Below the pieces are notes generated by a model that was given only the letters and a program-made list of their open reading frames with translations, was not told the origin of the DNA and did no database searches. This document shows positions 102-64,000 of a stretch of 64,000 bases of DNA, piece after piece. The stretch covers positions 62,001 to 126,000 of the forward strand of contig JADGKB010000024.1 in assembly GCA_027604185.1 (NCBI GenBank), read 5' to 3'. The position numbers and the translations under genes are program-made. Each line of letters opens with the position of its first letter. Positions within the stretch are counted from its first letter, which is position 1. The DNA comes from Boothiomyces macroporosus (lineage: Eukaryota; Chytridiomycota; Chytridiomycetes; Rhizophydiales; Terramycetaceae).

Positions 102-1132
102 TTATTTATGCAATACTTGCTTGACAGCATTCAATACTTGGTCATGAATCTTTCCATTGGTCGCAATAATCCCTCTATTGCTCTTTAATGTTCTTCCTTG
201 AGAGAAATCCAACTCTTTTCCATCAATATCAGTTACTTTGCCACCAGCTTCACTCACCATCAATGATCCACCAGCATCTACATTAGTAATAATTACGATC
301 CCAGATCTTTTCTTGGTAATCAGCCCTAGTTGGTATTCTAAGATATATTCCAGCATCGCCTCTGGCAATAACGGCGTATTTGCATTGAGAATCCATTCTG
401 ATTGGTTTGTTTTTGATATTTAGTAGCTCTGCAATTTTAAACGTATCTGATTGATTGGAGTGAGCAGCTTCTACTGATTCGCAAAAGCTGGTATCACTTG
501 GAGATTCAGCATCAGCAACTTTAACTCTAGTTTCTTTGCTGTCTTCAAATGATCGCTATGTTAGAATCATTTACTTCAAACACACCTTGGTGCTTTACGG
601 CAACCATTAATGACCCTCGTTGTGAATTTGGGTCATTGATATTTCTTGGCAAGTTAGGGCATCCTTGAATAGCTACTTTAACTTCTCCGTTAACAATCAG
701 CGATAAACAAACAGCAAACTGTTCTCCTCGCAAGAATCCTTTTGTTCCATCAATAGGATCTAATGTCCAGAATCTTCCTTGTGGACCTCCTTTGTAATTT
801 CCTAGATCGATCGCATCCAGAATTTGCTTGGTTGATAATGGGGTTTCCACTACTGAATTCGTCAATTCAACCACTTTATCACATAGCGATTGATTTTCCC
901 TCAAATCCTTGGAATCCTCTTCGCCGACTATCGGATCATTTGGAAATGCTTGATGAATAATGTGGTTAACCACAGCTTGAGCTCCGAAATCCGCAACAGT
1001 TACTGGTGAGGCATCTTCTTTAACCAGCGTCTGGGATTTGACCAATTTATTAAATACCGCCTGGCACAATTTACTGGCTTTGATTACGGCTTCAATTCCT
1101 TTTGCTCTTTCACCAGCGTATAATTTCAACAT
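102..1132 (-). CDS. MET22: 3'(2'),5'-bisphosphate nucleotidase (HAL2/MET22)
   Basis: Removes a phosphate from 3'-phosphoadenosine 5'-phosphate, a by-product of sulfate assimilation, giving AMP. Family features seen: VGEEDSKDLR, the metal-binding LDPIDGTKGF motif, and KIWDHAGGSLMVSEAGG, which is completed only after splicing. Exons are 1132-575, 555-297 and 277-102. The two 19-nt introns (556-574 and 278-296) are GT-AG, and removing them restores the family sequence exactly. The product is 330 aa, close to yeast Hal2. ATG at 1132 is 43 bp downstream of the OXR1 stop codon, in a head-to-tail arrangement. CYS3 at 22-23 kb is another sulfur-pathway gene but is not adjacent. Confidence 0.93.
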
Positions 1133-1175
1133 GGAAAAATTTAGAGAGATGAAAATCAATTTAAAAAAAATAATA

Positions 1176-2216
1176 TTAAATAACAAAACCCCAAACTTCA
1201 AGAGTAGCAATATTGTATTCGGTTGAGCTTGATAGCATTTCATTGTTGAATGTCTCGCATTTTTCAGAGTGTCCGTTATTTAGTTCATCGTCGATCCACA
1301 ATCCAAACTTTCCATGGCTATATCAGCAAAACTTACCCGCCTCCAAAGGCAATACAATGTGCTTCAGATAATACGTAGTAATCATTCTTTCCAGTCGCGT
1401 GGTACACTTGAATGTCTTCTCCCTGCATCTTCCAAAGGAAACTGGATTAGTAAATGGTACCTGCTACCATTCCCATAGTATCCTGGCTGTATATGTAATT
1501 CTTCAGAGGAAAAAGCACCGAATAACTGTCCATTTGTGTCTTTAATTACTACCAAACAAGGGCCCTTTTCTGCGGTATTGTGATATAAAGTATGAATGCT
1601 GATTCCATGATTTTCCAGTGAATATAATAATGTGACATTGGAAGCTTCTTGCAGTATAGGAGGCAAGTGGTGGTGTAACTAGCATAAACTATTAATTGCC
1701 TTTTTGAGAATATCCAAACTAAAGCTAGGCTTCTCATACTCTATTACTTCTTGATGGGTAGGTATATATACATTCTGCTGAGTATAATCTTCGTGTAAAA
1801 CTTCTGGAAAGTCAAATTCTTCCAATTCGGAAGCATCGAATAAAACCAGTTTTTTTGATTCTGGCTCTTCAATATTTGGGACTCGTTAATATCTATTTAC
1901 CTGCTTCAGGAGGCGTCTGTACAACTGGTGATGTTTCTGGCGAACCAACAGGACTTGTTGAAAGACCAGCCAAGTCATATATAAATGAAAGAAAGTTTTC
2001 CGGTTCCTTTTTGTGTGTAATATCCACTGGTTGCGCTTTGTCTGGACTCTGTTGTTTCTCTTCGTCTTTTTCCGGTTCAAGTTCCACTACATGGGACAGC
2101 AAATTTGAAGCAGTGTTGTATAATAGGGACAAGAATGGAGCAGAGTGGGGAGCGTCTTTTTTTGCATCTTGGTCTGTATTAATCGCGAGGTCATCTCTGG
2201 ACCTTTCCGTTGACAT
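1176..2216 (-). CDS. OXR1: TLDc-domain protein, OXR1 family
   Basis: OXR1/TLDc proteins protect against oxidative stress and, in several eukaryotes, regulate V-ATPase assembly. The N-terminal ~110 residues are acidic and low complexity. The TLDc domain follows: LLYSLENHGISIHTLY, GPCLVVIKD, FGAFSSEE, YYGNGSSFLW, FGGGGHGKFGLWIDDELNNG, CETFNNE, and ends with LEVWGF. Exons: 2216-1901, 1881-1700, 1678-1461, 1441-1337, 1317-1176, giving 320 aa. Three introns are 19-nt GT-AG. The one at 1679-1699 only works as a 21-nt GC-AG intron (GCAATT...CTAG); otherwise an in-frame TAG interrupts the domain. Confidence 0.9.
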
Positions 2217-2284
2217 TTTGATAAAGATTTTTCATGGTACCAGAGATTTTAAAATCAGACACAAATTAACGGGGTTTATTCAAA

Positions 2285-2684
2285 TTAATCCAAGTGCTTT
2301 GGTAATCTGCCTCTGCCTCCTCTTCCTCTCATACCTCTTTGGTTGCCTCTTGGAGGAGCTCTGACATTCTTGCTTTCTGTTGGACCAGTTTGTTTGGCTT
2401 TTCTCTTTGGAGCATCGTCAATTAATAGTGTATCCAATGGTAATGTATCTGGCAGTATAAAGTAACGAATGTTGTTTCCTCTGATTGATAGCGAATCAAG
2501 CACTACAGGATCTCTGTGTTTCACGGTCATTTTTACAGTTTTCAAATGTGTATTCATTTGCATATCCACACCCGTAATGGTTCCGCTGATTACTGTCCCA
2601 TTCTTTAGCTCAATGGTAACCGTTTCTGTAGAGCATTTCATCAAGAATCTACCGTTAGCACAGCTATTACCTGACCAACTTCAT
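2285..2684 (-). CDS. SMD1: Small nuclear ribonucleoprotein Sm D1
   Basis: Core Sm-ring subunit of spliceosomal snRNPs. The Sm1 motif ([19 protein letters not shown]), the D1 signature [10 protein letters not shown] and Sm2 ([15 protein letters not shown]) are all present, followed by the usual Arg/Gly tail. A 14-nt first coding exon (2684-2671) encodes MKLV and part of R; a 22-nt intron (2649-2670) separates it from the rest. The product is 125 aa, the usual length. The start gives the family N-terminus MKLVRFLMK. Confidence 0.96.
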
Positions 2685-2762
2685 CCTTCTGTTTTAGTAG
2701 ATCAGAAAAAAAGTTGGAATTTTTTTATTCGAAATTAGCGGAATTAGAATTCTCTTTTGAGC

Positions 2763-4098
2763 TTAGCGAATTAGAATGGGAGTGATTCTCTTTTTGCCGT
2801 CTGCAGCTGCTTTTGGGGTTTCTGGCTTTGCTGGCTTGGCAACCACTTGCACTTGTTCAACAATCTTTTCTTCTACGATTATTTCACCAAGCTCATTATC
2901 AGGGAACTCTATCATTGAACAGAAGCCATCGATAGAGGAAATCATTAAATACTGCCCATCATATGACCATGATATGTCAGTTAGGGAAGCGTAATGGAAT
3001 TTGCCAAAGAAAGCGATTGGAGCCATGTCTTCCGTGTCATATATTGCCACTGAATCGTGAGTAGCTAAAGCATATATATATCTATAGTCTGTGCTTGCAA
3101 AGGATTTTTCTTTTGATCTAAGCTTGTATTTCAGTGGATTGAACTTTACCGCAATGACAGCCTTCTGATGGTTAGAGAGGTGAGCACATGGACTAGAATA
3201 AAGTCAAAATTACTTGTTGAACGGTCTAGTGAATACATATGCAGTCATTGCTTGGTTATGGGTTCCCCCAGTTGAAATCAATAATTGGCCATCTGGTGAG
3301 AACGCCAGTCTTCGAAAGAAAGAGTTCAAATCTTCATCCATGTACATTCTAGTCTTTTCCTCCTACATTAAATAATGGTACATTGTTGAGCTTGGTGTGC
3401 TTTACAAGCAGCTTTGGGCTGTTCTTTTGTTTTTCCTCATACTTGTAGACATGCAATGCCCTAGCATTACCCAATCATTACCTATCACTGCTCTGGGAAG
3501 CAATATACTGGAAAAGCGGATCCCAAGCAACACCTTGAACGAAATGCTGATGCTCAGTCAACACATGAACGCATTTTTCTATATTAATCATAATTACGTT
3601 CTTTGATGTCAAATACTCTGATAGAGGAATCAATTCCAGCTGAAGCAATCATTGTTCCATTTGGAGACCAAGCAAGATCATATCTATGTCAACAAATAAT
3701 ATACAAATCAGATGTGGTTCCTCGCAAGATAATCGCTGTCCTCCAGTGCTCCAAGTTTTCAAATTCGTCATCATCCAATGACTGCTGTTTCTTGTCTGTT
3801 TGTTCCCACAGCAGGATGGATCCGTCTATAATAAAAGCCTAATTACCATCTCCACCAGTCGCAATGTATTGGCCATTAGGAGACCATCGGACGCAATTCA
3901 CAGCAGCCGAGTGTCTTGACAAGGTGGATAAATATTCAACATTTCCATCTTTTAAGCTCCAAATCCTTGCATTGTGATCACCCCCGCAAGTAGCGAATCT
4001 GTTTCGGATCGGATCGAAATCAACTGAAAATATCGGTAATTTGTCGTGCCATCTGTTTTAAGTTGGAATTACATTATCTGCAAAGTTTTTGCTCTCAT
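2763..4098 (-). CDS. CAC2: Chromatin assembly factor 1 subunit B (CAC2/CHAF1B)
   Basis: WD40 subunit of CAF-1, which deposits H3-H4 on newly replicated DNA. Family hallmarks: [18 protein letters not shown] at the N-terminus, [35 protein letters not shown], then [10 protein letters not shown] and [12 protein letters not shown] near the end. Seven introns of 19-21 nt (4053-4072, 3826-3846, 3684-3704, 3579-3597, 3461-3481, 3363-3381, 3193-3213) were placed by frame; every junction restores WD-repeat sequence. The product is 397 aa, shorter than the human protein because the C-terminal tail is short. The start codon is 33 bp from that of the divergent primase gene. Confidence 0.93.
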
Positions 4099-4131
4099 TT
4101 CCGATTGAACAAACTTCTGGACATTTTCCAA

Positions 4132-5559
4132 ATGACTGTTGATCTGGAATCGAGAAAGAAACAAAAAATTGAAGATCAAGATGAATACATGGATAACATG
4201 GATGTGGACCTTGTGAAACTGGAAGAAATTGAAAGCAGCGAAAGCCACGATTTTCAAACGCTGTTGAAGCTGTATTACCAAAAGTACTTTCCATTCAAGG
4301 ATTTCTACAACTGGCTTTCGTACGGAAATAGTATAATTGACTAATGCAGTTGTTAAATATTCGTTTTTAAACCGGGAATTTTCCTTTACTTTACAGTCAG
4401 ATAGTTACCTTCGATTCCTGTCATTCAAAGACTCTGAGGAGTTGAAAGCGGAAATATTACGACTTTGTCCTATTAAAATAGATATTGGTGCAATTTACAA
4501 TATTAAAGTAATTGATATTAACGAAAGCCCAAAGACAAAAAGACTGTTCAAGCGTCCGCTTTCGTTCCTCTGGAAAGAGAATTGGTTTTTGATATAGATA
4601 TGACTGACTACGACGATATCAGGACCTGTTGCGAAGGCGCAAATATCTGTTTGAAATGCTGGAATTTTATGACTGTTTCAATCCAAATAATTCATCGCGC
4701 TTTGGAAGATGATTTTGGATTCAAGCACATTCTGTGGGTGTTCAGTGGAAGAAGAGGTATCCACTGTTGGGTATGTGATGACAAAGCAAGATTATTGACT
4801 GTTGAGTCTAGAAAGGCTATAGTAAACTACTTGGAGCTACTAAAGGGCGGGGAATCTCAAGCACGAAAAGTGAATACTAGGGGCTCCGTTCTACATCCAT
4901 TGTTAGAGTAAGTATTGTTAAGATTAGAAAGTCTCTTGGACCATGTGCGACTCACTTTGATAGAATTATGTTGGACAAAATGGGAATTCTCAATTCAAAG
5001 GAACATTGGTCTAAACTGTTGGCTATTATCCCAGATGAATGTAATCAATTTTAACGTTAGCAATCCGCAATGAGCTGGATAATGAATGGAGCAAGTCACC
5101 AGACACTCCTGCATCTACCAAATGGGACATGTTGCAATCTAGGCTGAAAGGATCAAAAGTATTCATTACTTAATTATAGAAATCGAATTTGGAATACTTG
5201 GCAAGGGATATATTGTTTCAATATTCATACCCTAGATTGGATAGCAATGTATCTATTGGGCTCAATCACTTGCTCAAAAGTCCGTTTTGTGTCCACCCTA
5301 AAACAGGTATTCATTTATAACTCTAGGAAAGGTGTGTATACCAATAAATCCCAAGCTGTGCCATGAATTCAACCCAACGACTGTACCAACATTGAATGGA
5401 TTGTTTTCAGACGATAACACAAGTGATTTTTTGCTAACAATAGAGGAACTGGAAGAGTTCAAGGCACATGTTGAATATTTCAAGAATTTCACGTTGAGAT
5501 TACAAGAAGCGAGAGTTGCTAAACTTCGCGAACAGCAGAAAAACAGTCTAGATTTCTAA
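4132..5559 (+). CDS. PRI1: DNA primase small (catalytic) subunit
   Basis: Makes the RNA primer in the polymerase alpha-primase complex. Seen: WLSYGN...NREFSFTL, the catalytic [11 protein letters not shown], a zinc-binding CC/C..CW cluster, [36 protein letters not shown] and CVHPKTGKVCVPI. Exons: 4132-4330, 4350-4507, 4528-4907, 4928-5040, 5061-5158, 5180-5306, 5327-5559. The six introns are 19-21 nt. The product is 435 aa, close to human PRIM1 (420). It shares a 33-bp divergent spacer with CAC2, another replication gene. Confidence 0.96.
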
Positions 5560-5622
5560 GGTTTGGAATAAAATTGAGTTTTGAATTATAAAACAGTGAG
5601 TGACGCGCTTTGAAATTTTAAG

Positions 5623-6275: not shown

Positions 6276-6300
6276 TATATTTTTTTGCCTTTTTCCATTC

Positions 6301-7644: not shown

Positions 7645-7669
7645 AGTCATTGATGATAGATGACATTTA

Positions 7670-9376
7670 TTAAAACAATATTTCTTGTTTCTGAGTTAGA
7701 GAAATAAATACCTTTAAACACTCCATTGAGCAATATCTATAAATATTCTTATCAAAGGACTGCAGACCGGCCAAACTTTTTCCACAAGAACCACATTGAT
7801 TTTGGTTTACTCTCATTCTAGCTTCGGCAGCTAGTGCACTATATTACAATTTAATTACCGCTTTTCTCTGTCCAAACGCTGTCTCTGTTCTGGAGACATT
7901 CCAATAGACTGCTTTTCAGTCGCTGATAGCTTTACCAAAGTAACTTTCTTTGCTTGCTTTGTTTCGATAACTGGCGTAGGTTCAGGTTCGGGCTGCTCTT
8001 TCTTTTTCTTTTTCATTTCCCTCTCTTTTTTCCTTCTCTCTCTTTCCTTTTCCTTTTGTTTTTCTTCCATTTCTTCTGTCAACGGACCAGGAACATTTGC
8101 CAGTTTGTAATCCCATTGATCAGGGTAACGGTGCATATGTCTTCTGTACACATCTCTAGCCTCTTTTGTGGAGCACACGTCGTATGGGCGTTTTCCTAGC
8201 TTTGCGATTGTTGGGTCTGCCCCATTTTCCAAAAGATATTTTATAATTAATGGCTGGCCCTGTTCAGAGGCATAGTGAAGCAAGGTAAAACCGTACTGTA
8301 CAGGAAATGTACTGGTAATTGAATCTTTATCAAGTATAGAGATTAAATACTCCAGCCTCCCCTTCTTGATTGCTTCCAACTGATATTGTAGCAATTCCGG
8401 TATTTTCTCCCTTTCCAGTTCCTGAATTTGCAAATGTGTTTGTACCTTTTCCACAATTTCCTTTTCTTTCTTTGATTTGATTTCGTGTTCTTTAATCTCA
8501 ACATAATTAGCCGTGAAGAGCAGATCGAAAGCTCTTGTTAATTCTTGCAAAGTTGGACGATTAGTAATGAATGGGAATGACCTTACTTTTGACGGATCAA
8601 TGACCTTTTCATCAAATAAAATCACGCTTCTGCTTTGCACTGGACATTTGATAAAGACATATTTGGATTCGTTAATCAATGGCTTCCAGTCTTTCAAAAG
8701 CTGCTGGATTTCTTCGCGAAGGACTTGCTCATTGTATCTTCTAATTTGAGCACCAGCCGAATTCGCTTTTCCTTTTGAATTATCATTTCCAGATTGGGCA
8801 CCACCTTGTTTCCTTCTAGTCGTGTATCTATGAAATGTTTTATGGGCCAATTGCTTCTTTTCTGAATCTATAATCATGGCACTAAAGTGGCCAGAAGCCA
8901 TCATCAGTAAAGTGAATGTGGATTTCTGTTGTAATTCCAGTAAATTGTCTTTCCATTCTTTAGGGTCTTTTGAAAGAACCTGCTTGTAGACTTGGAGAAC
9001 TTTATCCTTGATTTTGAATTCAGCATAAGGACTCCCTTGTTTTACCGGCTCGGTTTCATCTAGTGTTAACTCTATTCGTTCCTAAGTTCAACGAAATCCG
9101 AGTACCTTCAGAAGATTCTTCATCAATTGAACTGATATCGGATTTATCATCAAATTCATCCTCGGTCAATGGCTTCAATTGCTTTACTTTTCTCTTTAAA
9201 TTATACAAGTGCAAGTCGCTCTTGAAGTGGGATTTGGTGGTGGAAATCAAACAAGTTGTGCATGGAATTCCTCCCTCTTCTATTTTGATTTCCTCTTCCT
9301 CTTCGATTACGTCCTGCTCGTATTCAATGCTATCCAGCAATCTGCTTGGAATTTTGAACACTGGAAATCTTTCCAT
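7670..9376 (-). CDS. VMS1: VMS1/ANKZF1, peptidyl-tRNA hydrolase of ribosome quality control
   Basis: Releases nascent chains from stalled 60S subunits and acts with Cdc48. In order: a zinc finger (CTTC...H...DLHLYNLKRK), the VLRF1 catalytic domain (SGHFSAMII, KTFHRYTTRRKQGGAQS with the family Gln, RRYNEQ), ankyrin repeats (FTLLHYASEQG, LLENGADPTI), a charged Lys/Glu coiled coil, and a terminal CGSCGKSL...YCSMECLK zinc motif. Introns: 9060-9105 (46 nt, atypically long), 7839-7858 (20 nt), 7691-7711 (21 nt). The product is 539 aa. A 34-nt alternative for the first intron (9072-9105) also keeps frame. The ATG at 9376 is 9 bp from the RPAP3 ATG. Confidence 0.9.
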
Positions 9377-16057: not shown

Positions 16058-16707
16058 ATGATCTGGGTCTTGTTCGGATTGGTAAACAGCCTGCATTTTT
16101 ATCTTTCGTCTTCAGAAACCAAATGCTTCTACGAGGAGCTTGCGATTCACACGACGGTCATTGGCGCTTATAAAGTACTCAATCACGAAGCAAATTTGAA
16201 TGCGTATATGGAGAATAAACTCACTACGTTAAAGATTGTAGTGCATAGTGAACATACGGGACATAACCTGGTAGACACGAATGGAGCAAGTAGAGGAAAG
16301 TTTCATTTTACCACTGGTAAGAAAGCGCTAAAGAAGCGGAATCAGGAGTACACAAGATTTGCATAACACCGCATACCCAGGACTGGTTTGGAACACAAAC
16401 AAAGATTTACTTTGATTTACAATTAGGGCAAGAAACCAAGGTAGACAAAACACCTGGTTATTATAATGGTAAGATTCACTAACAAGAATTCCGTTATAGA
16501 ACTAAAGACTTGATTCAAAGGGCAGAAACAGTGCGCAATGATTTGAAACAACAAAAAGAAAGAGAAGAAGAGCTCAGAAGCGCTAGTGAATCGTTAAATA
16601 CTCGATCCTACGTGTACACATTAGTACAGATTGTAATATTAGTGCTTACTTGTGCTTGGCAATTGGCCAGACTGAAAACTTTCTTTTACGAAAAGAAATT
16701 GATTTAA
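16058..16707 (+). CDS. p24/TMED family cargo receptor (delta-like)
   Basis: Type I membrane protein cycling between ER and Golgi in COPI/COPII vesicles. Signal peptide (VLFGLVNSLHFYLSS), GOLD domain with CFYEEL, VIGAYKVL, GKFHFTTAESGVHKICI, a coiled-coil region, one C-terminal membrane span (VQIVILVLTCAWQLARL) and a cytosolic FFYEKKLI tail carrying the KKxx retrieval signal. Introns: 16317-16336 (20 nt) and 16469-16486 (18 nt). The product is 203 aa, the usual length. SEC24 at 23.5 kb belongs to the same vesicle pathway. Confidence 0.93.
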
Positions 16708-17800: not shown

Positions 17801-19133
17801 ATGTGCGACAAATCAGCTTTAAAATTCAGTATAAAAGCTTCATGCTCGACTACAAAAGCCAGATCGTCATTCATGAAACTGCCTCATTATACAGTGCATA
17901 CACCGCAGTTCATGCCAGTGGGCACATCAGGCTGTATGAAGGGAGTTACAACTGAACAATTGGAGGAATTGGACTGCCATATCATTCTAGGCAATACCTA
18001 CCATCTTGCCCTACAACCAGGAAAGGATTTATTGAATCAAGTCGGCGGGCTGCACAAGTTCATGAATTGGAAAAGAGGAATGCTGACAGACTCTGGAGGT
18101 AAGATAAAAATTAAAGCAAGGATTCCAAATGGTTTCATTATTGAAATTCTCTGAAATTACAGAGGATGGAGTCAAGTTCATTTCACCATTTGATGGCGTA
18201 ACAGAAACTCTGCTTACCCCAGAGCACTCTATGGAAATCCAGAATGCTATTGGAGCAGGTATTAATTACTAACCAGATATTATGATGCAGTTGGATGATG
18301 TGGTGTCATCACTTGTTACTGGGCCAAGAGTAGAAGAAGCAATGTGGAGGTCAATCAGATGGTTGGATAGATGCTTCAAAGCACATGCCAAACCTAAAGA
18401 ACAGAACCTTTTTCCCATCATTCAAGGTGGTTTAGATTTGAGATTGAGAAAGATTTGTGTTGAAGAAATGGTAAAGCGCGATGCGAATGGCTATGCTGTA
18501 ATATTTGTTAATGCTAGATTGGAGGATTATCTGGGGGCGAATCTAAAGATACTTTTTGGAGAATAGTGTCCGCATGTACTGACTTGCTGCCTAAAGATAA
18601 GCCAAGATATTGCATGGGAGTTGGATATTCAGAGGATGTAATCATAGCTAATTTAGTTGGTTGTGTGCTCTGCTTTGGGTGTGGACATGTACGATTGTGT
18701 TTTCCCAACTAGAACTGCTAGATTTGGAAGTGCATTGACCAGAAGAGGAGCAATGAAGCTTAAAAATCAAATATATGAAATGGATCATCTGCCGATAGAA
18801 GAAGATTGCACATGCTATACATGCAAAACCCACACAAGAAGTTACTTGTCGAGACTGCTTAGACAGAAAGAGACTGTTGGATGCCACTTGATATCTATAC
18901 ACAACATTGCTTATCAAATGAGGCTGATGAAGGATATTCGCGATTCTATTGAGCAGGACCGCTTCCCAGCGTTTGTACAACAATTCATGAAAAAGTACTA
19001 CCATGAAAGAATTGCAAGTATCAGTGAAGACGAAGAAAATCAAAACGATCCAGGTAAAGCAATTGGTGCTGATGGATATCCCGTGTGGATCACCAACGCT
19101 TTAAGCAGTGTGGGCATTACATTACTCAAATAA
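17801..19133 (+). CDS. QTRT1: Queuine tRNA-ribosyltransferase catalytic subunit
   Basis: Exchanges guanine-34 for queuine in GUN-anticodon tRNAs. Motifs: [39 protein letters not shown] (catalytic Asp region), [45 protein letters not shown], zinc site CTCYTC...H..IHN. Introns: 18099-18120 (22 nt), 18259-18276 (18 nt), 18498-18517 (20 nt), 18638-18656 (19 nt). The product is 417 aa. No queuine-synthesis genes are seen here, in keeping with eukaryotic salvage. Confidence 0.97.
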
Positions 19134-21907: not shown

Positions 21908-23172
21908 TTAAAGCTTTGCGCGAACTTTGGAGGCTTTTTCCAACGCTTGTTTCAAATCAGCAATCAAGTCGTGAATATCTTCGACACCAACTGAAATACG
22001 GATCAAGCTTTCTGTAATTCCAAGTTCTTTGCGGAGAGCTGGCGCAACTGATGCGTGGGTCATCACCACTGGTAATTCAGCCAAAGATTCAATTCCTCCT
22101 AATGATTCAGCCAATACAAATATTTTTAAATTAGACAAAAAGGCATTTGAAACGTCCAGGTTCGCATTTTTGATTCTGAATGATACCATACCGCCAAATC
22201 TATGTTAAATCAGAGTTTACCCATGTTGTTGGCGCTTTGCAAGTTCATGTTGTGGATGGGAAGGTAATCCAGGATAAATGACAGATTCAACTAGTGGGGA
22301 AGCTTCCAGATACTTTGCAACTGCGAGAGCGTTTTCTCCGTGACGTTGCATTCTCAAGTGAAGGGTTTTTAAACCTCTGTTTGCCATGAAGCAGTCAAAT
22401 GGAGAAGGAACACCTCCAATTGAATTTTGCAAGAATGCCAATCTCTCGTGCAATTCGTCGCTGTTTGTAACGGCTACACCCATAACTACATCAGAGTGTC
22501 CGTTGAGGTACTTTGTGACAGAGTGCACTACGATATCCGCACCTAGTGACAATGGTCTTTGGTTATATGAAGACATGAAAGTGTTGTCGACAGCCAAAAT
22601 AACTCCTGGATACGAATGGACAATATCTGCTACTGCCTTGATATCAACCAATTTCAAAGTTGGGTTTGTAGGAGTTTCAATCCATACCATCTCCAGTTAA
22701 TTTAATATTACTTTGGTGTTTGGCTTGATTGCCTTTCTGAGGTTATTTGGATCAAATAAATCAACAAAATCAACAGATACACCGTGGGTGGACAAAACTT
22801 TGGTAAAGTATCTAAAAGTGCCTCCATATACATCATTGACACTGACTAAATGTGATCCACTGGTCAATAATGAAGAAACGGTGGCAGTGGTAACCGAACC
22901 AGAAGCGAATGCCAATCCGTGCTTTCCACCTTCCAATGCGGCAACAGCTTCTTCAAAAGCTTTTCTGGTGGGATTTCCGGAACGTGAATAATCGAATCCC
23001 TACCATTAATATGGACTTGCCTTATGTTCACCGGCTTTAGCTTGTTGGAAAGTGGTTGAGAGGGAAATTGGTGGGATAACAGCCCCAGTGGTAGGATCTA
23101 CAATTAAATATACTTACCTGCATTTTGACCGGCATGGATTGCGAGAGTGTTGAATTTGTAATTGTTGCCCAT
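21908..23172 (-). CDS. CYS3: Cystathionine gamma-lyase (PLP enzyme)
   Basis: Cleaves cystathionine to cysteine in reverse transsulfuration. Motifs: FNTLAIHAGQNA, TGAVIPPISLSTTF, GFDYSRSGNPTR, GLAFASGSVTTA, DVYGGTFRY, MVWIETPTNPTLKLVD, the PLP-lysine region VHSVTKYLNGHSDVVMG, and SLGGIESLAELP. Exons: 23172-23118, 23097-23021, 22999-22712, 22690-22221, 22199-21908, giving 393 aa. Introns are 20-21 nt. The one at 23000-23020 begins GCAAGT (GC-AG), required by the HKGFDYSRSGNPT reading. Confidence 0.97.
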
Positions 23173-23535: not shown

Positions 23536-26500
23536 ATGGATCCTAATCAACCAATTTCAAATCAAGGTTTTTGAAAAATAATTATAGCAGGATTTAGGCC
23601 TTTCATAAGACCGCCTCAGAGTGATGCACAGGGAAATCCAGGAGTCAGAATGATGAGACCACAATTTCAACCTCGACCACCTGGAACCCCAACTGCACAG
23701 TTTCGCCCAATAATAAGACCAGGAGTCCCTTCTGCAGCACAAAATTCTCCTCAGATGAGTTCCCCAGGGAATATTTCAGTACCTAACCAGAATCCCTCAC
23801 CAGTTAGTTCAGCTCCATCTCCTGGTTCTGCAACACGCCGTGTATATCCTGGTCAAGTATTCCTCATTTAATATTAGCCAAATGCCGGTGGTAACATGCC
23901 ATCTCTCCCATATCAAGGATTTAGACCTCAAGTCACTCCAGATCAAAATACACTTGCTAACGTTCCAGTTAATTCAGGACTCCAAAATCAAAATTTTGCA
24001 GCCAAACCACCTACCCAACCTCAGCCAAGACCATTTATTCCACAGCCTTCTTTACCAAACCAACCAGCACCAAATTATCCTCAAGCAAATACAAATTATG
24101 GCCAGATCCCACAACCATTTACAGGAATCAATCAAAATCAGCCTACAAGAGAAGCTAATCAAGTAAATGGTGCAAGTGCGAATTTTGGTGCTCAACCTGC
24201 CCCAGCATTCAAAGTTCCACAACCATCTTTTGGAGTTCCACAGCCAAATTATCCAGCAAATCAACCTTCACAGCCAGTTCAGCCTGTACAATATGGAGTT
24301 CCACAACCAAACGCTTACCCAAATGCACCACAACCTGGTGGATATAACGGTATGCAACCAGGTCAGCCTCAACCAGGAATGCAACCAGGTATCCAAGGAA
24401 TACAGCCAGGTATGCAACCAGGAGTGCAGCCACAAATGGGTTTTGCACCACCAGTGAATGGATTCCAGAATATGTCCATTGGAGGGACACAAGTAATAAG
24501 TAATTAATTTAGCCTACGGGAATTAATTTAATGGCTGGTCCCCCTGCGATAGATAGCTTTGCTGCTCCCCCACCTCCATTGAACATCAAGCAACCATCTG
24601 TCACCCAATCAGCAACTGCGAATTCTGATCCTTTGTACAAGCGATGTACTTTAAATGCTTTTCCAAATTCGTCACAACTTCTTGGCAAATCCAAATTACC
24701 ATTGGGTATAATGCTTACACCGTTTAGACAATTACTGCCTGGTGATGTATTTCGTATTTAATTGTAGCCGGAAGTACCTGTAATTCAATCTCCTCAAATT
24801 GTAAGATGTCGTAGATGCAGAAGCTATATCAATCCATGGGTACAGTTTGTAGAACAAGGAACTAGATGGAAATGCAATATGTGTTCTTTAAGCAATGATG
24901 TTCCATCATTTTTCGATTGGGATCAAGATAACCGCAATAGAGTCGATCGTATGGCGAGACCTGAACTGAATTTGGGTGTGGTTGAATATATTGCTCCTCA
25001 GGAATATATGATACGTCCCCCTCAACCAGTGGTATTTCTCTTTGTAATTGATGTTTCCCAAGGTGCAGTTCAATCTGGCATGGTAGCCACCGCTGCAAAT
25101 GCAATTCTGGAGACGATTGATAAAATCCCAAATACTGATGATCGCACCAAAATCGGATTTATCACTTTCGATACTTCTATACACTTTTATAATCTAAACG
25201 TAAACCACTTCTAACTTAGTCCCACCTATCTGAACCACAAGTATTGATTGTTCCAGATCTAGAGCAACCATTCTTACCACTACCTTATGATTTACTAGTA
25301 CCTCTCAGTGAATCTAGAAATGTGGTTAAAGCTTTGTTGCGCAAGTTGCCATCGTTATACGGAACAACATTCCAGTCCTTATCAGCGACAGGAAAAGCAC
25401 TCCGATCAGCAGAAAAGTTGATTGGAGCAATAGGTGGGAAAATCATACTTTTACAACATGCATTACCCACACATGATGAAGGATGGTTGAAAGTGAGAGA
25501 AGATCCAAAATTGCTTGGCACACCAAAAGAAGTAGCACTACTCCAACCAGCAATTACATTCTACAAAACGTTTGCTGTGGACTGTTCAGGCGCTCAAATA
25601 TCACTTGACATTTTCCTCTTTAACGAGAAATATGCCGATGTTGCAACATTAAGTAATAACTGTTTAATATTAGGTGGTTTGGCTAAATTTACTGGCGGTG
25701 GTGTTTACTATTACCAAGGATTTAATGCATCTAAAGGAGAGGATGCAATGAAGTTTTCTTATGAGCTATCTCACCTCTTAACAAGACCATTAGGCTTGGA
25801 AGCAGTAATCCGAATTAGATCCACCAAGGCAATAAAAATGTCTGCCTTCCATGGTAACTTTTTCCTCCGATCTGCTGATCTGCTGGCGCTTCCAAACGTT
25901 AATCCAGACAATGCATACACTGTTGAATTACAAATATTGGAAGATATCAAAACACCCTCTATTTGCTTCCAAACTGCGGTTTTATATACTTCCAGTTCTG
26001 GCGAAAGACGAATTAGGGTATTGACTTTGAATGTTCCTGTCACTACAAGTTTATCAGAAGTATATATAGGGGCAGATCAAGCAGCAATAGCTGCATTACT
26101 CGTCAAGAAAGGTATACAGTGTTTAATTTTAGCTGTTGACCGAAGCTTGACATCTAAAATTGAGGATGCCAGAGATGCTCTTACATACAAGCTAACTGAA
26201 ATCCTCACATTCTATAAACAACAATTCAATCAAGCCACTCATCCTCAGCAGCTAATGATTGCAGAAAACTTGCGCCTATTGCCAATTTACATTCTCGGAA
26301 TGCTCAAAAATGTAAGTTTTATTAACATAGTTGTGTTTTAGAGACTCGAGCGTTATACCAAGTGACTTGCGCTCATACATGCTTGCATTACACTATGCAG
26401 CCTGTCCTGAATTCCAATTGGATAACTTGTATCCAAGATTCTGGAATTTATCGTCTTTACTAGCAGATCCTGCTATAGGTAAAAAAGATGAGAACGGAAA

Positions 26501-26938
26501 GCTTGTATATCCACAAAGATTGAACTTGAGTAGCGAAAAGTTGGACAGGACTGGTATATTCTTGTTGGAAAACGGATTACAAACCTTTATATGGATTGGT
26601 CGAAATGCAGATCTTTCCTTGTTAGCCAATGTATTTGGCCAACAAAGTTTGGATCAAGTAGTATGCGGAAAGGTATTTGCTGACTGACATAGACCACTTT
26701 ACCACGATTAGAAAACGATATTAATGCAAGAGTTTATGCATTAATCGATGATATCAGATTAACTAGATTATTGCAAGCAACTATCCACAGTCAATTATAT
26801 GTTGTTAGAGAAGACGGAGATCCTAGCTTGAGGATGTGGTTCCTCAGTCACTTGATAGAGGATCGCATTGAGAAACTACTGTCGTACCCACAGTTCTTGG
26901 CAACAATCAGAGAAAATGTTCAAAAAGCTAAAAGTTGA
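23536..26938 (+). CDS. SEC24: COPII coat subunit SEC24
   Basis: Cargo-binding subunit of the COPII inner coat at ER exit sites. The first ~340 residues are Pro/Gln/Asn-rich with degenerate QPGMQPG-type repeats. Then the zinc finger ([12 protein letters not shown]...CNMC), the trunk ([33 protein letters not shown]), the beta-sandwich, the helical domain ([14 protein letters not shown]) and the gelsolin-like domain. Exons: 23536-23566, 23588-23856, 23878-24492, 24513-24746, 24768-25199, 25220-26311, 26331-26672, 26693-26938. The seven introns are 19-21 nt. The product is 1086 aa. Confidence 0.96.
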
Positions 26939-33820: not shown

Positions 33821-36800
33821 ATGTCAGTGACGAAAATCTTGTTTTCCTTCAAGACTACACCAGCATATGGTAAAATGAGCTAATCGCAGGTCCGCTAGTC
33901 GCTTCTTACTATGCTTCGAAAGCTTCGGATCCAAATTTCAAAATTGAATTCAATTCCTCAGAAAAACCTGTTGTACTTCATCACCAAGTTGAAGTAACTG
34001 GAATCAATCATGTGCTACGAACTATTGGGACAATTTACCAAAAGGAATTCCACCTTGACAATCCAATTACTGCCAGTCAAGTCGATTTTTGGTTGGATTA
34101 CTGTCAAGATAATCTATATACTGCTGATTTCAAGACAGTTTCTGGATGTTTCGACTATTTAGACAACTACCTCACTCTTAGATCGTTTATGGTTGGATAT
34201 CATCTCACACTTGCAGATTTTGCAGTTTGGGGTGCTCTCAAAAGCAACGCAATCTTCAACAAGCAATTGAAGGGCGGAAAGATGGACACAAAGAACTTGA
34301 CCAGATGGTATCAATACATGAACTCTTTGGAAGCGGTCGAAAAAGCCTTGAGTCTTTTAGATAAAGCTAAAGACACTGGAAAAGACAGAGGTGACAAGGG
34401 AAATATGGATATTCCACTCCCTGATGCACATGAAGGTCAAGTCGTCACTAGATTCCCTCCTGAACCTAGTGGTTACTTGCACATTGGTCATGCCAAAGCA
34501 GCTTTGTTGAATGATTACTTTGCACGCTCATATAAAGGCAAGTTGATCATTCGTTTCGACGACACTAACCCTTCAAAGGAAAAGGTAGAAAATACTAACA
34601 ATAGGATGAATTCGAAAACAGTATCAAGGAGGATTTGCAATTACTTGGTATCAAGGGAGATGTAGTTGTCCACACTTCTGATCACTTTGATAAAATTTAC
34701 CAAAAAGCATTGGAATTTATAAAGAATGGAGACGCCTATGTTGATAACACTGATGTTGATACTATGCGAAATGAACGTTTTGATGGTATCGAATCAAAGA
34801 ACCGCAACAACTCTGTCAAAGAAAACTTGAGATTATTTGAAGAAATGCATAAAGGCACTGAACTTGTAAGCATTTGCTAATTCTAGGGACAAACCTGCTG
34901 CTTGCGTGCTAAAATTGATATGCAGGACAAGAACAAGTGTATGAGAGATCCAGTCATGTACCGTTGCAACTTGACACCTCATCACATTACTGGAACTAAA
35001 TGGAAAATGTATCCAACATATGATTTCGCTTGCCCTTTGGTTGACTCTTACGACGGAGTTACCCACGCACTTCGTACTATTGAATATCGTGACAGAAACC
35101 CTCAATATGCTTGGTTCTTGGAAAAAGCAAAAGTCAGAAAAGTTCATATTTGGGACTTTAGTAGATTGAGCTTCATTTACACATTACTTTCGAAGCGTAA
35201 ACTAACTTGGTTCGTTGAAGAAAACCTTGTCACTGGCTGGGATGATCCTCGTTTCCCAACTGTTAGAGGTATTCGCCGTAGAGGTATGACTATCGATGCT
35301 CTTCGTCAGTACATTATTTCTCAAGGTGCTTCTCAAAGAGAGCTTTCTTTGGAATGGGACAAAATCTGGGCTTTGAACAAAAAAGTAATCGATCCAATTT
35401 CTCCTCGTCATACTGCTTTGGTAAATGATAAGATTGTCAAAGTAAATGTTGTGGGAGAAACTGTCAAGACCGAAATTAAAGCAGTGCCAAAACACAAAAA
35501 GAACCCAGATTTAGGCAACAAATTGACCACCTACGCACAAAACCTTTATTTGGAACAAGTTGATGCTGCTACTGTTGAGCTAGGAGAAGAAATTACTTTG
35601 ATGGACTGGGGAAATGTTATCGTCAAGGATATCAAGAAATCTGGAGATGTTGTTACTTCAATTGATGTAACTTTGAATTTGGATGGAGACTTCAAAAAGA
35701 CCAAAAAAAAGTTTACCTGGCTTGCACAAGGAGCAACTGCTGATTCAAAGTTGATCAAAACCACTTTGCTCGACTATGACTACCTTATCACCAAAAAGAA
35801 GCTCGAAGAAGATGATGATGTGAAGGATTTCCTCACTCCGCAAACTGAATTTAGAACTGAAGCTCTTGGTGACTCTAACTTGCGCTTGCTGAAAAAGGGT
35901 GATATTATCCAATTGGAAAGAAAAGGGTACTATATTTGCGATAAGGAATATACTGCAAATGACTCTGTTCATTTGATTTCTATTCCAGATGGCAGAGCTG
36001 ATTCTGTAGCTTCGAAAGCAGCCAGTGCAACTACCCCTGCTGCACCAAAAGCAAAAACTCAAAAGAAGGAAGCAAATCCATGGAAAATCAGCATGTATGA
36101 AGTTGACTCTATCTATGATGGAAGCTACAACCCATCATCTAAGGTTGGAAGCATGTACGAAATCGACTCCATTTATCCAAAAGATGCTCCAAAAACCACC
36201 AAAGCAAAGGAACAAAAAGCAAAAGAAGAAAAGCCAAAGAAGGAAGGTAAAAAAGAACAAGCCGCTGAACCTGCTGGCGAAGGTATTTAGTAGATAACAT
36301 TAGCCTCTCTAATTACCAAGCTTGATATTGTTGTTGGTAAAGTTTTAAAAGTTGAACGTCATCCAGATGCTGATTCTCTTTATGTTGAAACCATTGATGT
36401 GGGAGAACCTCAGCCAAGAACCGTAGTTTCTGGATTGGTAAACTTTTTGAAACCAGAAGAAATTGACCAAAAGCTTGTCGTGATTTTAAAGAATTTGAAG
36501 CCAGTATCAATGAGAGGAATCAAGTCTTTTGCAATGGTACTATGTGCATCCAATGAAGACCACACAAAGGTAGAACTCCTTGTTCCGCCAAAAGGAAGCA
36601 AGCCTGGAGACAAGATCTTCTTTAAAGGACATGCTGGTGAACCAGAACCAGAATTGAAGCCTAAAAAAAAAGTATGGGAGACCGTTCAACCAGACTTCTT
36701 GACCACTGATGATTTGGTAGCTACTTGGCAAGGAATTCCATTTGAAACTTCTAAAGGTGTTGTCAAGACTGGTTCATTAAAGAAGGCTCACATTAAATAA
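33821..36800 (+). CDS. GUS1: Glutamyl-tRNA synthetase fused to an EMAP-II/Arc1 tRNA-binding domain
   Basis: N-terminal GST-like domain ([33 protein letters not shown]). Class I catalytic core: [20 protein letters not shown] (HIGH motif), [44 protein letters not shown] (KMSKS variant), [13 protein letters not shown]. Then the GlnRS-type anticodon-binding barrels, a Lys/Glu/Ala linker with two [12 protein letters not shown] copies, and a complete t[51 protein letters not shown]. Introns: 33870-33889, 34585-34604 (20 nt each), 34866-34886 and 36283-36303 (21 nt each). The last intron joins the linker to the tRBD in frame. The product is 965 aa. Confidence 0.94.
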
Positions 36801-55584: not shown

Positions 55585-55753
55585 GAAACTTTTGATTACA
55601 AAAAAAATTTCAATTCCTACAACCTGGAATATAGAGATAATTGCGAGTAGAGAGGTTTAATTATGCGCGAATATGAATCGCCTCGCAGCAAGAAAACATT
55701 TAGGCAAGTTTGAATTAAATTATATTACACATATCTAGGTTTGTTTATACTCA

Positions 55754-58138: not shown

Positions 58139-58299
58139 TCGTAAAGAACATACGTCATTTTTTCTTAGAATGGCATTGTGATTGGCCAGGAAAAATTAAA
58201 TAATTTTTTATCATGATATTGCTCAATTCTGATTGTATTTATCTGCGGTAGTTTATTTTCAATCGAAATCACCAGAAAAAAAATTTTAACTTTTTTGGA

Positions 58300-60556: not shown

Positions 60557-60950
60557 TATAATTTATTCATTGTCTTTGAGGTCTCTACTTCTGCACCCCA
60601 ACACAATTGAGCCAAATTAGTCCTTGAAGTACCTTTGTTTGGCTTTGAAGGTTATCTTCTATCGCCACCAGAACACGTTGGGCTAATTCTCTCAGGGACA
60701 TTTAGTTTGACAGTTGCTTTCCAACAAGGTGATTAGGTGACAATGATGAAAAGAACAATAATATTAATCTCTATTTCGGAATCGTCTCCTCGACTAGCCA
60801 TTATGTAAGAGTGAGGTGCTTGAATTACCAGAGAAACACAATTCCCAACACCTGTTTCATGGCAGGTTCCTGGCTAATGACGACACGGAACTAGATGGAC
60901 TATAAAAGTTGAGTAAAGGAGAAGAGGTCAGCTACAAAAACAGATTAGAA
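60557..60950 (+). promoter_or_regulatory. Intergenic region with TATA element before the His/Thr-rich surface gene
   Basis: 394 bp without a gene. TATAAAAG at 60901-60908 lies about 43-50 bp before the ATG at 60951. Nothing else is recognised. Confidence 0.45.
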
Positions 60951-61598
60951 ATGTTCAAATCAATTGTATATTTAACCGCTGCCTGCTTATCTGCCCCAAC
61001 TTCATACGATTATCATTCTGGTGGAACTTCTGTTGAAGTTGATGTCCAAGTGTCTCAAGGAAAAGACTATGGGTATGAACACGAATCTCACCATCACAAG
61101 CACCATCACTCTACAGAGAATAAGGGATACAACTCTAATGACTATGGGCATAACAGCTATGGTTCAAGCTATGGTAGCGAGGGTTACAATAATGAAAATG
61201 TCAATGTCAACGTTGAAGTAGATATCAATGCTGGTTCCAACTATCACGGATACTATGAAAGCACCGTCTCTGCAACTACTGTTGCATGTATGGCTACCGC
61301 AACTACTACCACTGATACTACAACTGTTGATACTACCACACTCGCATATGTTGCAATCCAAACTACAGTAGTCGATACTACAACCACTGTAGAAACAACT
61401 ACCACAGACGCTGCAGTTATCGAAACCACTCAAGGATACTTTACTCCAACGATGAATAGCTACTTTACGCCAACTGTTGATGCTGCTATTGCAATTACCA
61501 CAACTGCATCTTACGGATCCAACATCATTTCTGCTGCAACTACCAGCACTTTCTCAATGGCCGGTATTCTATTTTTACTTGTTACTACCAGTATTTAA
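60951..61598 (+). CDS. Surface protein, family B (His-rich, Thr-rich, GPI-type tail)
   Basis: Starts MFKSIVYLTAACLSAPTS (signal peptide). A His-rich segment follows (ESHHHKHHHSTE), then Ser/Tyr/Gly/Asn repeats, a Val/Asn segment (VNVNVEVDIN), a Thr-rich mucin-like block, YFTPTVDAAIAITTTASYGS, NIIS, and a hydrophobic end (MAGILFLLVTTSI) suited to a GPI signal. 215 aa from the ATG at 60951, no intron. Shares start, His-rich region and C-terminal module with the next gene. Function unknown. Confidence 0.75.
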   Translation: MFKSIVYLTAACLSAPTSYDYHSGGTSVEVDVQVSQGKDYGYEHESHHHKHHHSTENKGYNSNDYGHNSYGSSYGSEGYNNENVNVNVEVDINAGSNYHGYYESTVSATTVACMATATTTTDTTTVDTTTLAYVAIQTTVVDTTTTVETTTTDAAVIETTQGYFTPTMNSYFTPTVDAAIAITTTASYGSNIISAATTSTFSMAGILFLLVTTSI

Positions 61599-62062
61599 CT
61601 GTTAAATAAAATTGTGTGCTATTCTCAAAAACTCATTATTTTTAAAAAGGAAATGGGACTCGATTACTGTGGTGGAAATCTATGGAGTAATTGCCCACCA
61701 ACTAAATCAAACCAAGGGCTCTTTTGTATCATTTGTACCTCGAATTATCCCATCATCTTGGGCTAGTTTCCAAGGACGCCGCATCCCAACTTTACCTCCC
61801 TCAAAGTGGTGAAACAACTGAAAAAAAGTGAAAATTGAGTACACACATAGAAAGGTTGAAACCTCTGGAATTTCTAAGGGAAATCTTCAACCATACAGAA
61901 AAGATTAAACCAGAGATTCCTAATTTGAATTTTTGGACGAAACCCCAGCCAGTGAACTCTTGAAGATTCACAACGAGCCTAAAGAGTCAAGCCAATGTCT
62001 GAGCCTGCGCTGTGCTGGTGGACAATATATAAACGTCCAAGATCTTGGTTAGGCAGTAAAAA
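61599..62062 (+). promoter_or_regulatory. Intergenic region with TATA element before the second family B gene
   Basis: 464 bp without a supported gene. TATATAAA at 62026-62033 lies about 30-37 bp before the ATG at 62063. Confidence 0.5.
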
Positions 62063-62833
62063 ATGTTCAAAGCTGCAATTTTGTGCTCGCTTGTTATTGC
62101 CCTTCCACATATGAAGAAACATGATATGAACAAGCATATGCAACACGGGGAAAACATGGATCACGGAAATAGACATAAACATCATAAACAAGAAAGATTG
62201 CCATGCACTACAGAAGTTCCTACTACTACTGTTCCATGCGAACAAGCCAAAACTACCACAACTGTTCCTTGTGAACAGCCAACAACCACAACTGTTCCTT
62301 GTGAACAGCCAACAACCACAACTGTTCCTTGTGAACAGCCAACAACTACCACAACTGTTCCATGCATGACCACCACCACAACTACTCAACCATGTCAACA
62401 GGCAACTACCACAACTGATATACCTGTGGTGGTGCAAACCACTGTCCCATGTATGACCACCACTGTTGATATTCCTGTAATTACCACCACCCCATGTATG
62501 GAAACCACCCAACCGCCAGTGTACCAACCTCCAGTTTACCAAACCCCACCAGTTGTTCAAACTACTGATATCCCAGTAATTGCAACTACTCCATGTATGG
62601 AAACGACCCAACCACCAGTGTACCAACCTCCAGTTTACCAAACCCCACCGGTAATCATGACCACCGACGCACCAATAATTCAAACTCCACAAGCTACCCC
62701 TTATGCTGCATTCACCCCAACTGCTGATGCTGCAGTTGTAGCAACTACCACTCCACCCTACGGTGGAAATATTATTTCAAGCTCAATTGATGCCAAAGCA
62801 AGTTTAGCATTCCTCGTAATGTTAATGCTATAA
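62063..62833 (+). CDS. Surface protein, family B (Thr/Pro/Cys repeats, GPI-type tail)
   Basis: Signal peptide (MFKAAILCSLVIALP), a His/Met/Lys-rich segment (HMKKHDMNKHMQHGENMDHG), then TTTVPCEQP-type decapeptide repeats with regularly spaced cysteines, and two long copies of PCMETTQPPVYQPPVYQTPP. It ends with AAFTPTADAAVVATTTPPYG, GNIIS and a hydrophobic tail (LAFLVMLML). 256 aa, no intron. The C-terminal TP..DAA...TT...YG.NIIS module is shared with the 60951 protein. Likely wall- or membrane-anchored; His and Cys could bind metal, which is inference. Confidence 0.77.
   Translation: MFKAAILCSLVIALPHMKKHDMNKHMQHGENMDHGNRHKHHKQERLPCTTEVPTTTVPCEQAKTTTTVPCEQPTTTTVPCEQPTTTTVPCEQPTTTTTVPCMTTTTTTQPCQQATTTTDIPVVVQTTVPCMTTTVDIPVITTTPCMETTQPPVYQPPVYQTPPVVQTTDIPVIATTPCMETTQPPVYQPPVYQTPPVIMTTDAPIIQTPQATPYAAFTPTADAAVVATTTPPYGGNIISSSIDAKASLAFLVMLML
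62251..62340 (+). repeat. Three 30-bp tandem units inside the family B gene
   Basis: 62281-62310 and 62311-62340 are identical (AACAACCACAACTGTTCCTT plus GTGAACAGCC). 62251-62280 differs by a few bases. They encode TTTVPCEQP-type decapeptides. Confidence 0.92.
62490..62660 (+). repeat. Long direct duplication inside the family B gene
   Basis: About 62490-62555 and 62591-62656 are nearly identical and encode PCMETTQPPVYQPPVYQTPP twice. They differ at a few third positions, so this is an older duplication than the 30-bp units. Confidence 0.85.
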
Positions 62834-62858
62834 GTTAATAAATCTGTAAATGTTTTAT

Positions 62859-64000
62859 TTAATCTCTATCATTATAATTCCTAATTTTCCTCTTAATTTT
62901 AACATTACGATCTTCAGTCTTTTTTTCTGCCAGTTTGGATTCTAGGAATTTCAATCGATTGTTTTCTTCCAACAGAACACTCTTTTCTTTTACTACTTTT
63001 TTGTATTCATTCAAGAGTAGATTGAATTTATCACGAACGTGGTCTCTCGGATAATTCAACTGCTCGATATCCACTCGCATTTGGTGTATTATTGATTTCA
63101 ATTCACTGTTTTCGTTGACTAGAACGTATTCAGACTCTTTAGATTCATTTTTCATTTGATCAATCTATATTAAATGCAATTACCACTTGTTTCTGCATAT
63201 TTATTTCCAAGAGTAATTGATCTATTCTTGACTCTAATGATTTCACTCTACTTGTTGAATTGTCAACTTTGCTGTTTTTGAATTCTAATTCTGTCTCTAA
63301 TTGCTTTGTATAATGGCTCAATTCAGTAAATGAGCTTTCTAATTTCGACTTTTCATTCAATGCAGCATCTAGTCTGCTTTTTAATTCAACAATTTCTTGT
63401 TTTTGGGAATCCACCGTAATTGAAAATTCTTTTTTGCAACTGGATAGCTCTTTTGAATGAGTTAACTTTAACTGATTCAAATACAAGTCTTTGGCACTAC
63501 GCTCATTCACAATAGTTGCCATTTTCGATTGCAAATCATCAATTTCAGTTTCATATTTTGCTACCAGTTTTTGTTTTTCTATTTCAAACGTATCCCCTAG
63601 TTCTAAAATATTCTTTTCAAAATCTTTTTTTAATTCTTGTATCTCTATTTGATGATTACTAATTTGCAATAACTGACTTTGAATCTCTCTTTGATACTCT
63701 AAATTTTGGGCACTGAGAGCTTTCTTTTCTCGAACTGTTCTATTCAAATCTTGCAAAAGATTATTTCTCTCTTTCACATACTCTTTTCTTTGCAAGTCAT
63801 TGTAATCCCTTTCTTGCTCAATAGTATTTTGTAATTCCAGAATTTTTTCATTTATAATCTGACGTTCATCTGCATATTGCCATTTGGTATCCCTCAAACA
63901 AGATTCAAGATTTCTAGAGTTAACAACTGTCTTTTTAAAAACAAGCGATAAAACTTACTTTATGGTATTTGAAGCATCCAGTAACCTTGATTCAATATTT
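62859..64000 (-). CDS. Coiled-coil protein, 5' end beyond the right edge
   Basis: Almost entirely heptad-like sequence rich in Glu/Lys/Gln/Leu: ESRLLDASNTIKNLESCLRD, KWQYADERQIINEKILELQN, RTVREKKALSAQNLEYQREI, VDIEQLNYPRDHVRDKFNLL, ending KIKRKIRNYNDRD. Introns: 63165-63183 (19 nt) and 63914-63958 (45 nt, long class). At least 358 residues are visible. No globular domain is seen. Candidates include centrosomal, basal-body or flagellar coiled-coil proteins, but the family cannot be assigned. Confidence 0.8.

Follow-up and report, generated by a model that had tools for sequence, protein, structure and literature searches.

Can the genes of a fungal nucleus be interrupted almost throughout by spliceosomal introns of about 20 nt? 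The question is raised by a 64,000-nt stretch, hereafter the window, which comprises bases 62001-126000 of contig 24 in the 15.2-Mb, 216-contig assembly of Boothiomyces macroporosus (Chytridiomycota, order Rhizophydiales, family Terramycetaceae). A sequence-only reading of the window had proposed about 125 GT-AG introns, nearly all of 18-25 nt and at about two per kb, in a genome with 'fungus-like content', and the source is indeed a chytrid. We are highly confident that, in B. macroporosus, these segments are U2-type spliceosomal introns of the ordinary kind, close to the minimal size. They are mostly 19-21 nt long because a GTA donor, a YTAAY branch motif and an AG acceptor are packed at two tight spacings, with a floor of about 19 nt. 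The DNA sampled here amounts to 264 kb from 21 contigs, namely the window and 20 loci of 10 kb (contigs 1-20), and most of the sampled genes appear, as judged from the sequence, to be interrupted by such introns of about 20 bases, which are among the smallest known.

In the window, a gene model trained on the sampled sequence and permitting only GT-AG or GC-AG ends predicts 38 genes on both strands (102..63883) with 133 introns, of which 126 measure 17-23 nt and two more 24 nt, close to the number first proposed. Across the 264 kb the same model, restricted to introns of at most 90 nt, called 137 genes and 456 introns; 414 of the 456 were 17-23 nt long with a mode of 20 (96 of 19 nt, 151 of 20 nt and 112 of 21 nt), the remainder being 40 of 24-90 nt and two of 10 nt. 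Within that limit of 90 nt, nearly all introns are shorter than about 26 nt, a length distribution in keeping with the sequence-only reading. Tiny introns are present in 21 of 21 stretches (126 in the window, 3-35 per 10-kb locus), and, relative to coding sequence, their density is 2.5 per kb for the window and 2.0 per kb for the 264 kb; a rough extrapolation gives about 24,000 per genome. When the sequence was reversed, the same model called two genes and six introns, one of them tiny. Across the whole genome, the pattern GTAN7YTAAYNNAG, a single fixed geometry of 19 nt, has 3,271 matches, compared with 279 for the pattern read backwards.

Genes scoring below 8 and the lower-scoring genes in overlaps were dropped from the model output, and the 100-400-nt jumps of the first pass were excluded from the count on the view that most of them are fused genes; at least one such jump in the window resolved into separate adjacent genes once gene ends were made cheaper. 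The overlap filter discarded a DNA primase gene, with seven further tiny introns, preferring a gene start on the opposite strand, and the window list contains both misses and some false members. Among the 40 calls of 24-90 nt, at least one, at 25854-25907, was rejected as conserved Sec24 coding sequence. Likewise, a 34-nt intron in the methyltransferase gene of locus L008 was rejected as a model error, the sequence there fitting, by eye, a 19-nt intron.

The same size class is found independently of the gene model. Raw counts of GTA...YTAAY...AG in the 264 kb were 92, 95 and 53 at 19, 20 and 21 nt, and 5-23 at every length from 22 to 79 nt; with the control motif YATAY the counts were flat, without a 19-21-nt peak. 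A frame-joining test, which has no preference for length or motif except for the end dinucleotides, placed 14 of 27 GT-AG joins at 18-22 nt, compared with 8 of 115 pooled for five other dinucleotide pairs (singly 1/24, 1/21, 2/26, 0/18 and 4/26). For a homology test, five Sec24 and five primase proteins from other fungi were aligned to the DNA, and no splice rule governed where gaps could fall. GT...AG was carried within an 8-nt shift by 49 of the 85 gaps, compared with 5.0% of random 19-21-nt segments; all 49 were 19-21 nt long, and 48 of them coincided with predicted introns. The GT-AG ends, although built into the gene model, are thus backed by the dinucleotide frame-joining test and by homology.

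Two window genes illustrate how far the alignments and the predicted introns agree. In Sec24 (plus strand), four of the six introns in the conserved domain are recovered exactly with 5/5 foreign proteins, namely those at 25200-25219 (20 nt), 26112-26132 (21 nt), 26312-26330 (19 nt) and 26673-26692 (20 nt), all four of which also lie within a structure alignment. The 21-nt intron at 25653-25673 is supported by 4/5 foreign proteins and those at 23857-23877 and 24747-24767, both of 21 nt, exactly by 1/5 each, the other four placing an 18-nt gap at the latter. The spliced Sec24 protein (six introns in the searched part) aligns to a solved structure across its junctions, with a four-residue gap at the 24747-24767 junction, where the closest of the five fungal proteins yields the exact intron. 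In the primase small-subunit gene (plus strand, 4189-5559, seven tiny introns), three introns are exact with 5/5 foreign proteins: 4331-4349 (19 nt), 4508-4527 (20 nt) and 5307-5326 (20 nt). The first of these, cited by the sequence-only reading, is missing from the main model list and was recovered by a local rerun as well as by the foreign proteins. The introns starting at 4908 and 5041 are exact with 3/5 and that at 5159 with 1/5, while the 21-nt intron at 5423-5443, in the poorly conserved C-terminus, is matched by 0/5.

Two further spliced proteins align to solved structures across their junctions. Queuine tRNA-ribosyltransferase has four plus-strand introns, at 18099-18120 (22 nt), 18259-18276 (18 nt), 18498-18517 (20 nt) and 18638-18656 (19 nt), and cystathionine gamma-lyase has four on the minus strand, at 22200-22220, 22691-22711 and 23000-23020 (21 nt each) and at 23098-23117 (20 nt); the lyase alignment contains a one-residue gap about two residues from the first junction. 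The intron at 18259-18276 and the 19-nt minus-strand intron at 278-296 (GTAATTATTACTAATGTAG), both cited in the sequence-only reading, are called by the gene model, as is a 19-nt minus-strand intron at the right edge of the span of that reading (63165-63183). Its fourth example, 18 nt at 16469-16486 on the plus strand in what we take to be a p24-like gene, is the weakest: by hand translation it joins two open frames, yet it is uncalled, and the local model prefers a 39-nt intron with the same donor.

The anatomy of the introns is highly regular. Their ends are GT in 407 and GC in 10 of 417, each with AG, the only pairs that the model permits; the donor carries A at position +3 in 91% of 404 introns, and the 3' ends are TAG in 267, CAG in 90, AAG in 50 and GAG in 10 of 417. 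In a model-free two-way count, the first G is followed by the branch A at an offset of 13, 14 or 15 nt, and from the branch A it is a further 5-6 nt to the terminal G: for spacings of 5 and 6, the counts are 64 and 50 at offset 13, 36 and 33 at offset 14, and 12 and 10 at offset 15. Cells at offset 12 contain 0-3 counts and those at the remaining offsets, as far as 29, contain 0-6, with background means of 1.3-3.0, so that the donor-to-branch distance has a sharp lower limit at 13 nt. In the main 2 x 2 table, of offsets 13 and 14 and spacings 5 and 6, the two distances show no association (Fisher p = 0.65). Full independence is nevertheless ruled out, since a branch-to-end spacing of 4, with 15 counts at offset 14, has only four at offset 13 (18 nt in total), a deficit with p = 0.0009, so that a lower bound of about 19 nt on the whole intron appears to act as well. 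YTAAY thus behaves as a branch motif, with a peak of its own, a fixed distance to the AG and an intact GUAGUA in U2. Mostly 3-4 nt lie between the branch A and the AG, so no polypyrimidine tract fits there, and the stretch upstream of the branch is T-rich. Selection for stop codons in introns of 3n length is known from Paramecium; here, introns of 3n length were not clearly enriched in in-frame stops (75 of 125, compared with 163 of 292 of other lengths).

Genes for parts of the corresponding machinery are present. A genome search that covered U1, U2 and U6 found two U2 genes (142.2 and 135.4 bits) and one U6 gene (62.2 bits) above the Rfam cut-offs, together with one U1 gene. Their pairing regions are canonical, with AUACUUACCUG at the 5' end of U1, GUAGUA in U2 and ACAGAGA in U6, which together with the GT-AG or GC-AG ends and the fixed YTAAY spacing upholds the claim that the introns are spliceosomal. 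The U1 gene and one U2 gene have in common, by eye, an upstream TCACATGAC motif and TATAAATA box (L001, about 1412-1480; L024, about 1420-1475), perhaps an snRNA promoter. Of the protein factors, SF1 was found at 114.6 bits (cut-off 29.3), and 183 residues of the U2AF35 prediction align to the Schizosaccharomyces pombe protein with one single-residue gap. The spliced U2AF65 prediction aligns to solved U2AF65 chains over query residues 71-267 and 300-395, which we take to be RRM1-RRM2 and the UHM, respectively. The U2AF35 and U2AF65 genes are themselves interrupted by tiny introns. The sequence-only reading had stated that no polypyrimidine tract can fit; this holds after the branch point, yet the genes for U2AF35, U2AF65 and SF1 are retained. 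A genome search for RED_N gave no match, and control genomes were likewise without a match. Two RRM matches with equal scores lie 45 kb apart on contig 20 (74251-74478 and 119318-119545), possibly a recent duplication.

Several observations weigh against this interpretation. The gene models are blind to introns longer than 400 nt, and 78 of the 505 first-pass jumps measure 100-400 nt. The donor has G at position +5 in only 83 of 417 introns although U1 keeps its canonical 5' end, so pairing there is weak. The U1 gene scores 68.8 bits, just below the Rfam cut-off of 69.5, and in a genome search with exons apart the best match to the U2AF65 family model reached 230.7 bits, below the cut-off of 310.3. 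Two of the three control motifs (YAATY and RTTAR) give weaker 19-21-nt peaks, which arise from shifted-register overlap with the branch motif, and 36 of the 85 homology gaps are without GT-AG, many of them in poorly conserved ends. Finally, that the tiny introns are removed from the mRNA is something we infer from homology.

In two genes, complete tiny introns follow each other head to tail. In the minus-strand gene of L008, which is related to the tRNA m3C methyltransferase METTL6 and presumably of METTL2 type, 57 nt (reverse-complement bases 1313-1369) are made up of complete 19-nt introns, three in number, that abut directly without any intervening exon. The array sits inside the codons for HNAWDNV; NA[WF][DE] is found in 117 of 120 listed homologues and the stricter HNA[WF][DE] in 66 of the 120. 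The second case, in a gene for a Tctex-type dynein light chain (L030:1439-1476), was spotted from two adjacent sites among 100 listed genome-wide matches to GTAN7YTAAYNNAG and has a pair of 19-nt units, 38 nt in all, that separates VNNVIKE from SIEST; once the pair is taken out, a gap-free alignment of 64 residues to a solved light chain results. Each 19-nt unit bears its own GTA, YTAAY and AG. Such arrays exist but are rare: among 353 motif units in the sequences scanned, a gap of zero was counted four times, other gaps below 80 nt at most once each and gaps of 81-148 nt up to four times, and two of 34 jumps of at least 32 nt, neither of them in the window, can be split into tiny units joined head to tail (chance 2.4%). 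Two of the four zero-gap cases belong to the methyltransferase array, and the other two represent a single U2AF35 site that is covered by a pair of overlapping loci. This U2AF35 pair was rejected as an array, its first unit being conserved coding sequence: the stretch encoding VTDFNEA (L025:1847-1865) matches the intron motif exactly and stands directly before a predicted intron. It offers a naturally occurring case in which to test how false introns are avoided by the spliceosome.

How such units are removed is a matter of nearly even balance. The 38 or 57 nt may be spliced as a single intron, a possibility to which we give almost an even chance: the public model P0242 removes the full 57 nt, and removal in one step gives an identical mRNA. 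Against it, introns of 24-90 nt are otherwise scarce (40 of 456), at least some of these calls being false, and every unit comes with a donor, a branch motif and an acceptor of its own. Stepwise removal would be slightly favoured on these data, given the near absence of further introns in that size range. In both genes, AG|GT is juxtaposed at the unit boundaries and full removal restores the protein, as expected of recursive splicing. No inner intron interrupts an outer splice signal in either tandem gene and every 19-nt unit is complete, which distinguishes the arrays from stwintrons.

For the tiny introns in general, we propose that the major spliceosome would recognise the whole intron as one unit, with U2 pairing with the branch motif and U2AF35 reading the AG. 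With only 3-4 nt between the branch A and the AG, U2AF65 may be kept in place through contacts with proteins (SF1, SF3B1) or by the T-rich sequence that precedes the branch, and head-to-tail units would be excised one after another. More tentatively, and at somewhat less than even confidence, we hypothesize a spliceosome of fixed gauge. It would apply two rulers, of about 13-14 and then 5-6 nt, with a floor of about 19 nt, and the removal of head-to-tail 19-nt introns singly across zero-length exons would represent a miniature form of recursive splicing as well as a trace of intron gain at existing junctions.

The origin of the introns is a separate matter. 'Miniaturisation', the term used in the sequence-only reading, implies the shrinking of older introns and is plausible. 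The introns could instead have been gained as ready-made tiny units, by introner-like copying or by reverse splicing into junctions, which we consider unlikely but worth retaining as a contender. Their very uniform geometry would suit such a gain, as would the two genes with two or three head-to-tail 19-nt units, an arrangement that repeated insertion or duplication at one site would yield. The units of the tandem arrays are, by eye, not near-identical, and the intron phases (0/1/2: 169/138/97 of 404) show an excess of phase 0, which is usual for old introns; both observations speak against it.

Other routes by which the segments might be lost, such as DNA elimination as in ciliates, translational bypassing or assembly indels, are very improbable, since hundreds of sites bear the full set of spliceosomal signals at a fixed spacing and the genome has matching U1, U2 and U6 genes, besides genes for U2AF and SF1. 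We regard it as next to inconceivable that the calls are an artefact of the motif search or the gene model: the motif does occur in real exons, as in VTDFNEA of U2AF35, and some single calls are wrong (25854-25907 and the 34-nt call in L008), but one tiny call on reversed sequence against 414 and the recovery of the same gaps by homology-only alignments together refute it as a general explanation, and moreover the YATAY control is flat and spacings outside 13-15 stay at background.

The interpretation as ordinary tiny introns has consequences for public annotation, since all three public B. macroporosus models that were compared keep one tiny intron as peptide. The retained peptides are NNCLILG (21 nt, Sec24, 25653-25673), SDFLLTI (21 nt, primase, 5423-5443) and VLFYNQ (18 nt, P0242, whose gene lies on contig 6). 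Each model contains one further likely error: the Sec24 model starts at predicted residue 107, a few residues after the intron at 23857-23877, the primase model has lost a conserved stretch, and P0242 has a truncated C-terminus. From its residue-107 start on, the Sec24 model is otherwise identical to ours, and the public pipeline therefore splices six of the seven tiny introns in that span alike. Intron errors in the public models explain why the spliced proteins of the window match their public B. macroporosus counterparts at 99% (Sec24) and 94% (primase) rather than 100% identity; Sec24 is 95% identical to the protein of Terramyces sp. JEL0728 and 69% identical to that of Kappamyces. Among 120 listed Sec24 homologues, no other has a 5-9-residue insertion at the NNCLILG site, and of the two insertions of this size that are unique in conserved parts of these proteins, just one, the B. 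macroporosus insertion, is compatible with an intron. The Terramyces primase ends in PILE, aligned to LLE of B. macroporosus where the unspliced reading meets a stop, which is only a hint that tiny introns may extend beyond B. macroporosus.

Beyond the introns, some features of the sampled DNA deserve mention. The window gene at 33821-36800 encodes a glutamyl-type tRNA synthetase, of which the Pfam search covered the synthetase part, and appears to bear what we take, by eye, to be a C-terminal EMAPII/Arc1-like domain. The minus-strand gene at 7858-9081 combines a bVLRF1 release-factor domain with ankyrin repeats and is presumably Vms1/ANKZF1-like. A conserved 17-base 18S rRNA pattern had no exact match in the assembly, from which ribosomal DNA may be absent.

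Ultrashort introns themselves are already known and are reported at 15-16 nt in heterotrich ciliates, 18-21 nt in chlorarachniophyte nucleomorphs and 16-17 nt in mikrocytids (PMC10245619, PMC4494063, PMC9505925). The introns of Stentor share the narrow size band and mostly GU-AG ends; in those of 15 nt the branch A is at position 10, five nt before the end, as in many B. macroporosus introns, and U2AF1, U2AF2 and SF1 are listed as found, whereas Slu7 and Prp18 are reported to be missing from the Stentor set and parts of Cwc25 and Isy1 to lack conservation (PMC9505925). In contrast, B. macroporosus is a fungus with introns of 19-21 nt and the branch A at nucleotide 14-16, and it has a clear YTAAY branch motif, whereas Stentor lacks a strong consensus. 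Nucleomorph introns are given as GT-AG and of the same size class (PMC4494063, PMC10245619), but nucleomorphs are relict endosymbiont nuclei and the present genome is a 15.2-Mb fungal nuclear one. Mikrocytid introns are likewise tiny and very uniform (PMC10245619); mikrocytids are parasitic, their spliceosomes are strongly reduced and M. mackini has 224 introns annotated, unlike B. macroporosus with its extrapolated 24,000 or so introns and its U2AF35, U2AF65 and SF1. The juxtaposed AG|GT of both tandem genes is shared with recursive splicing, which is described as the stepwise removal of long introns (PMC6110456), whereas the units here are 19 nt long. Ascomycete stwintrons also place more than one intron at one site (PMC9024468, PMC6616335), but there the internal intron interrupts a signal of the outer one, and the B. 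macroporosus units are complete and head to tail. No report of ultrashort introns in a chytrid or any fungus was found in searches of the open-licence PubMed Central literature. What is new here is the fungal lineage, the retention of U2AF and SF1, the clear branch motif and the tandem units; relative to the sequence-only reading, the two spacings, the head-to-tail units and the public-annotation errors are added.

The finding bears on how small a conventional intron can be. In human extracts, efficient assembly requires about 50 nt from 5' splice site to branch (PMC6692369), and eight pyrimidines are given as the minimum for U2AF-dependent splicing to be efficient (PMC8363638); in B. macroporosus the donor and the branch are 13-15 nt apart and a tract would find no space after the branch, yet the U2AF and SF1 genes are kept. 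A pan-eukaryotic survey of minor introns excluded all introns below 30 bp (PMC10639083), a filter that would hide those of B. macroporosus. In practical terms, introns have been translated in the public protein models of B. macroporosus (three of three compared). A fungus with some 24,000 such introns, as extrapolated, would allow tests of the lower size limit of splicing and of the role of U2AF without a polypyrimidine tract.

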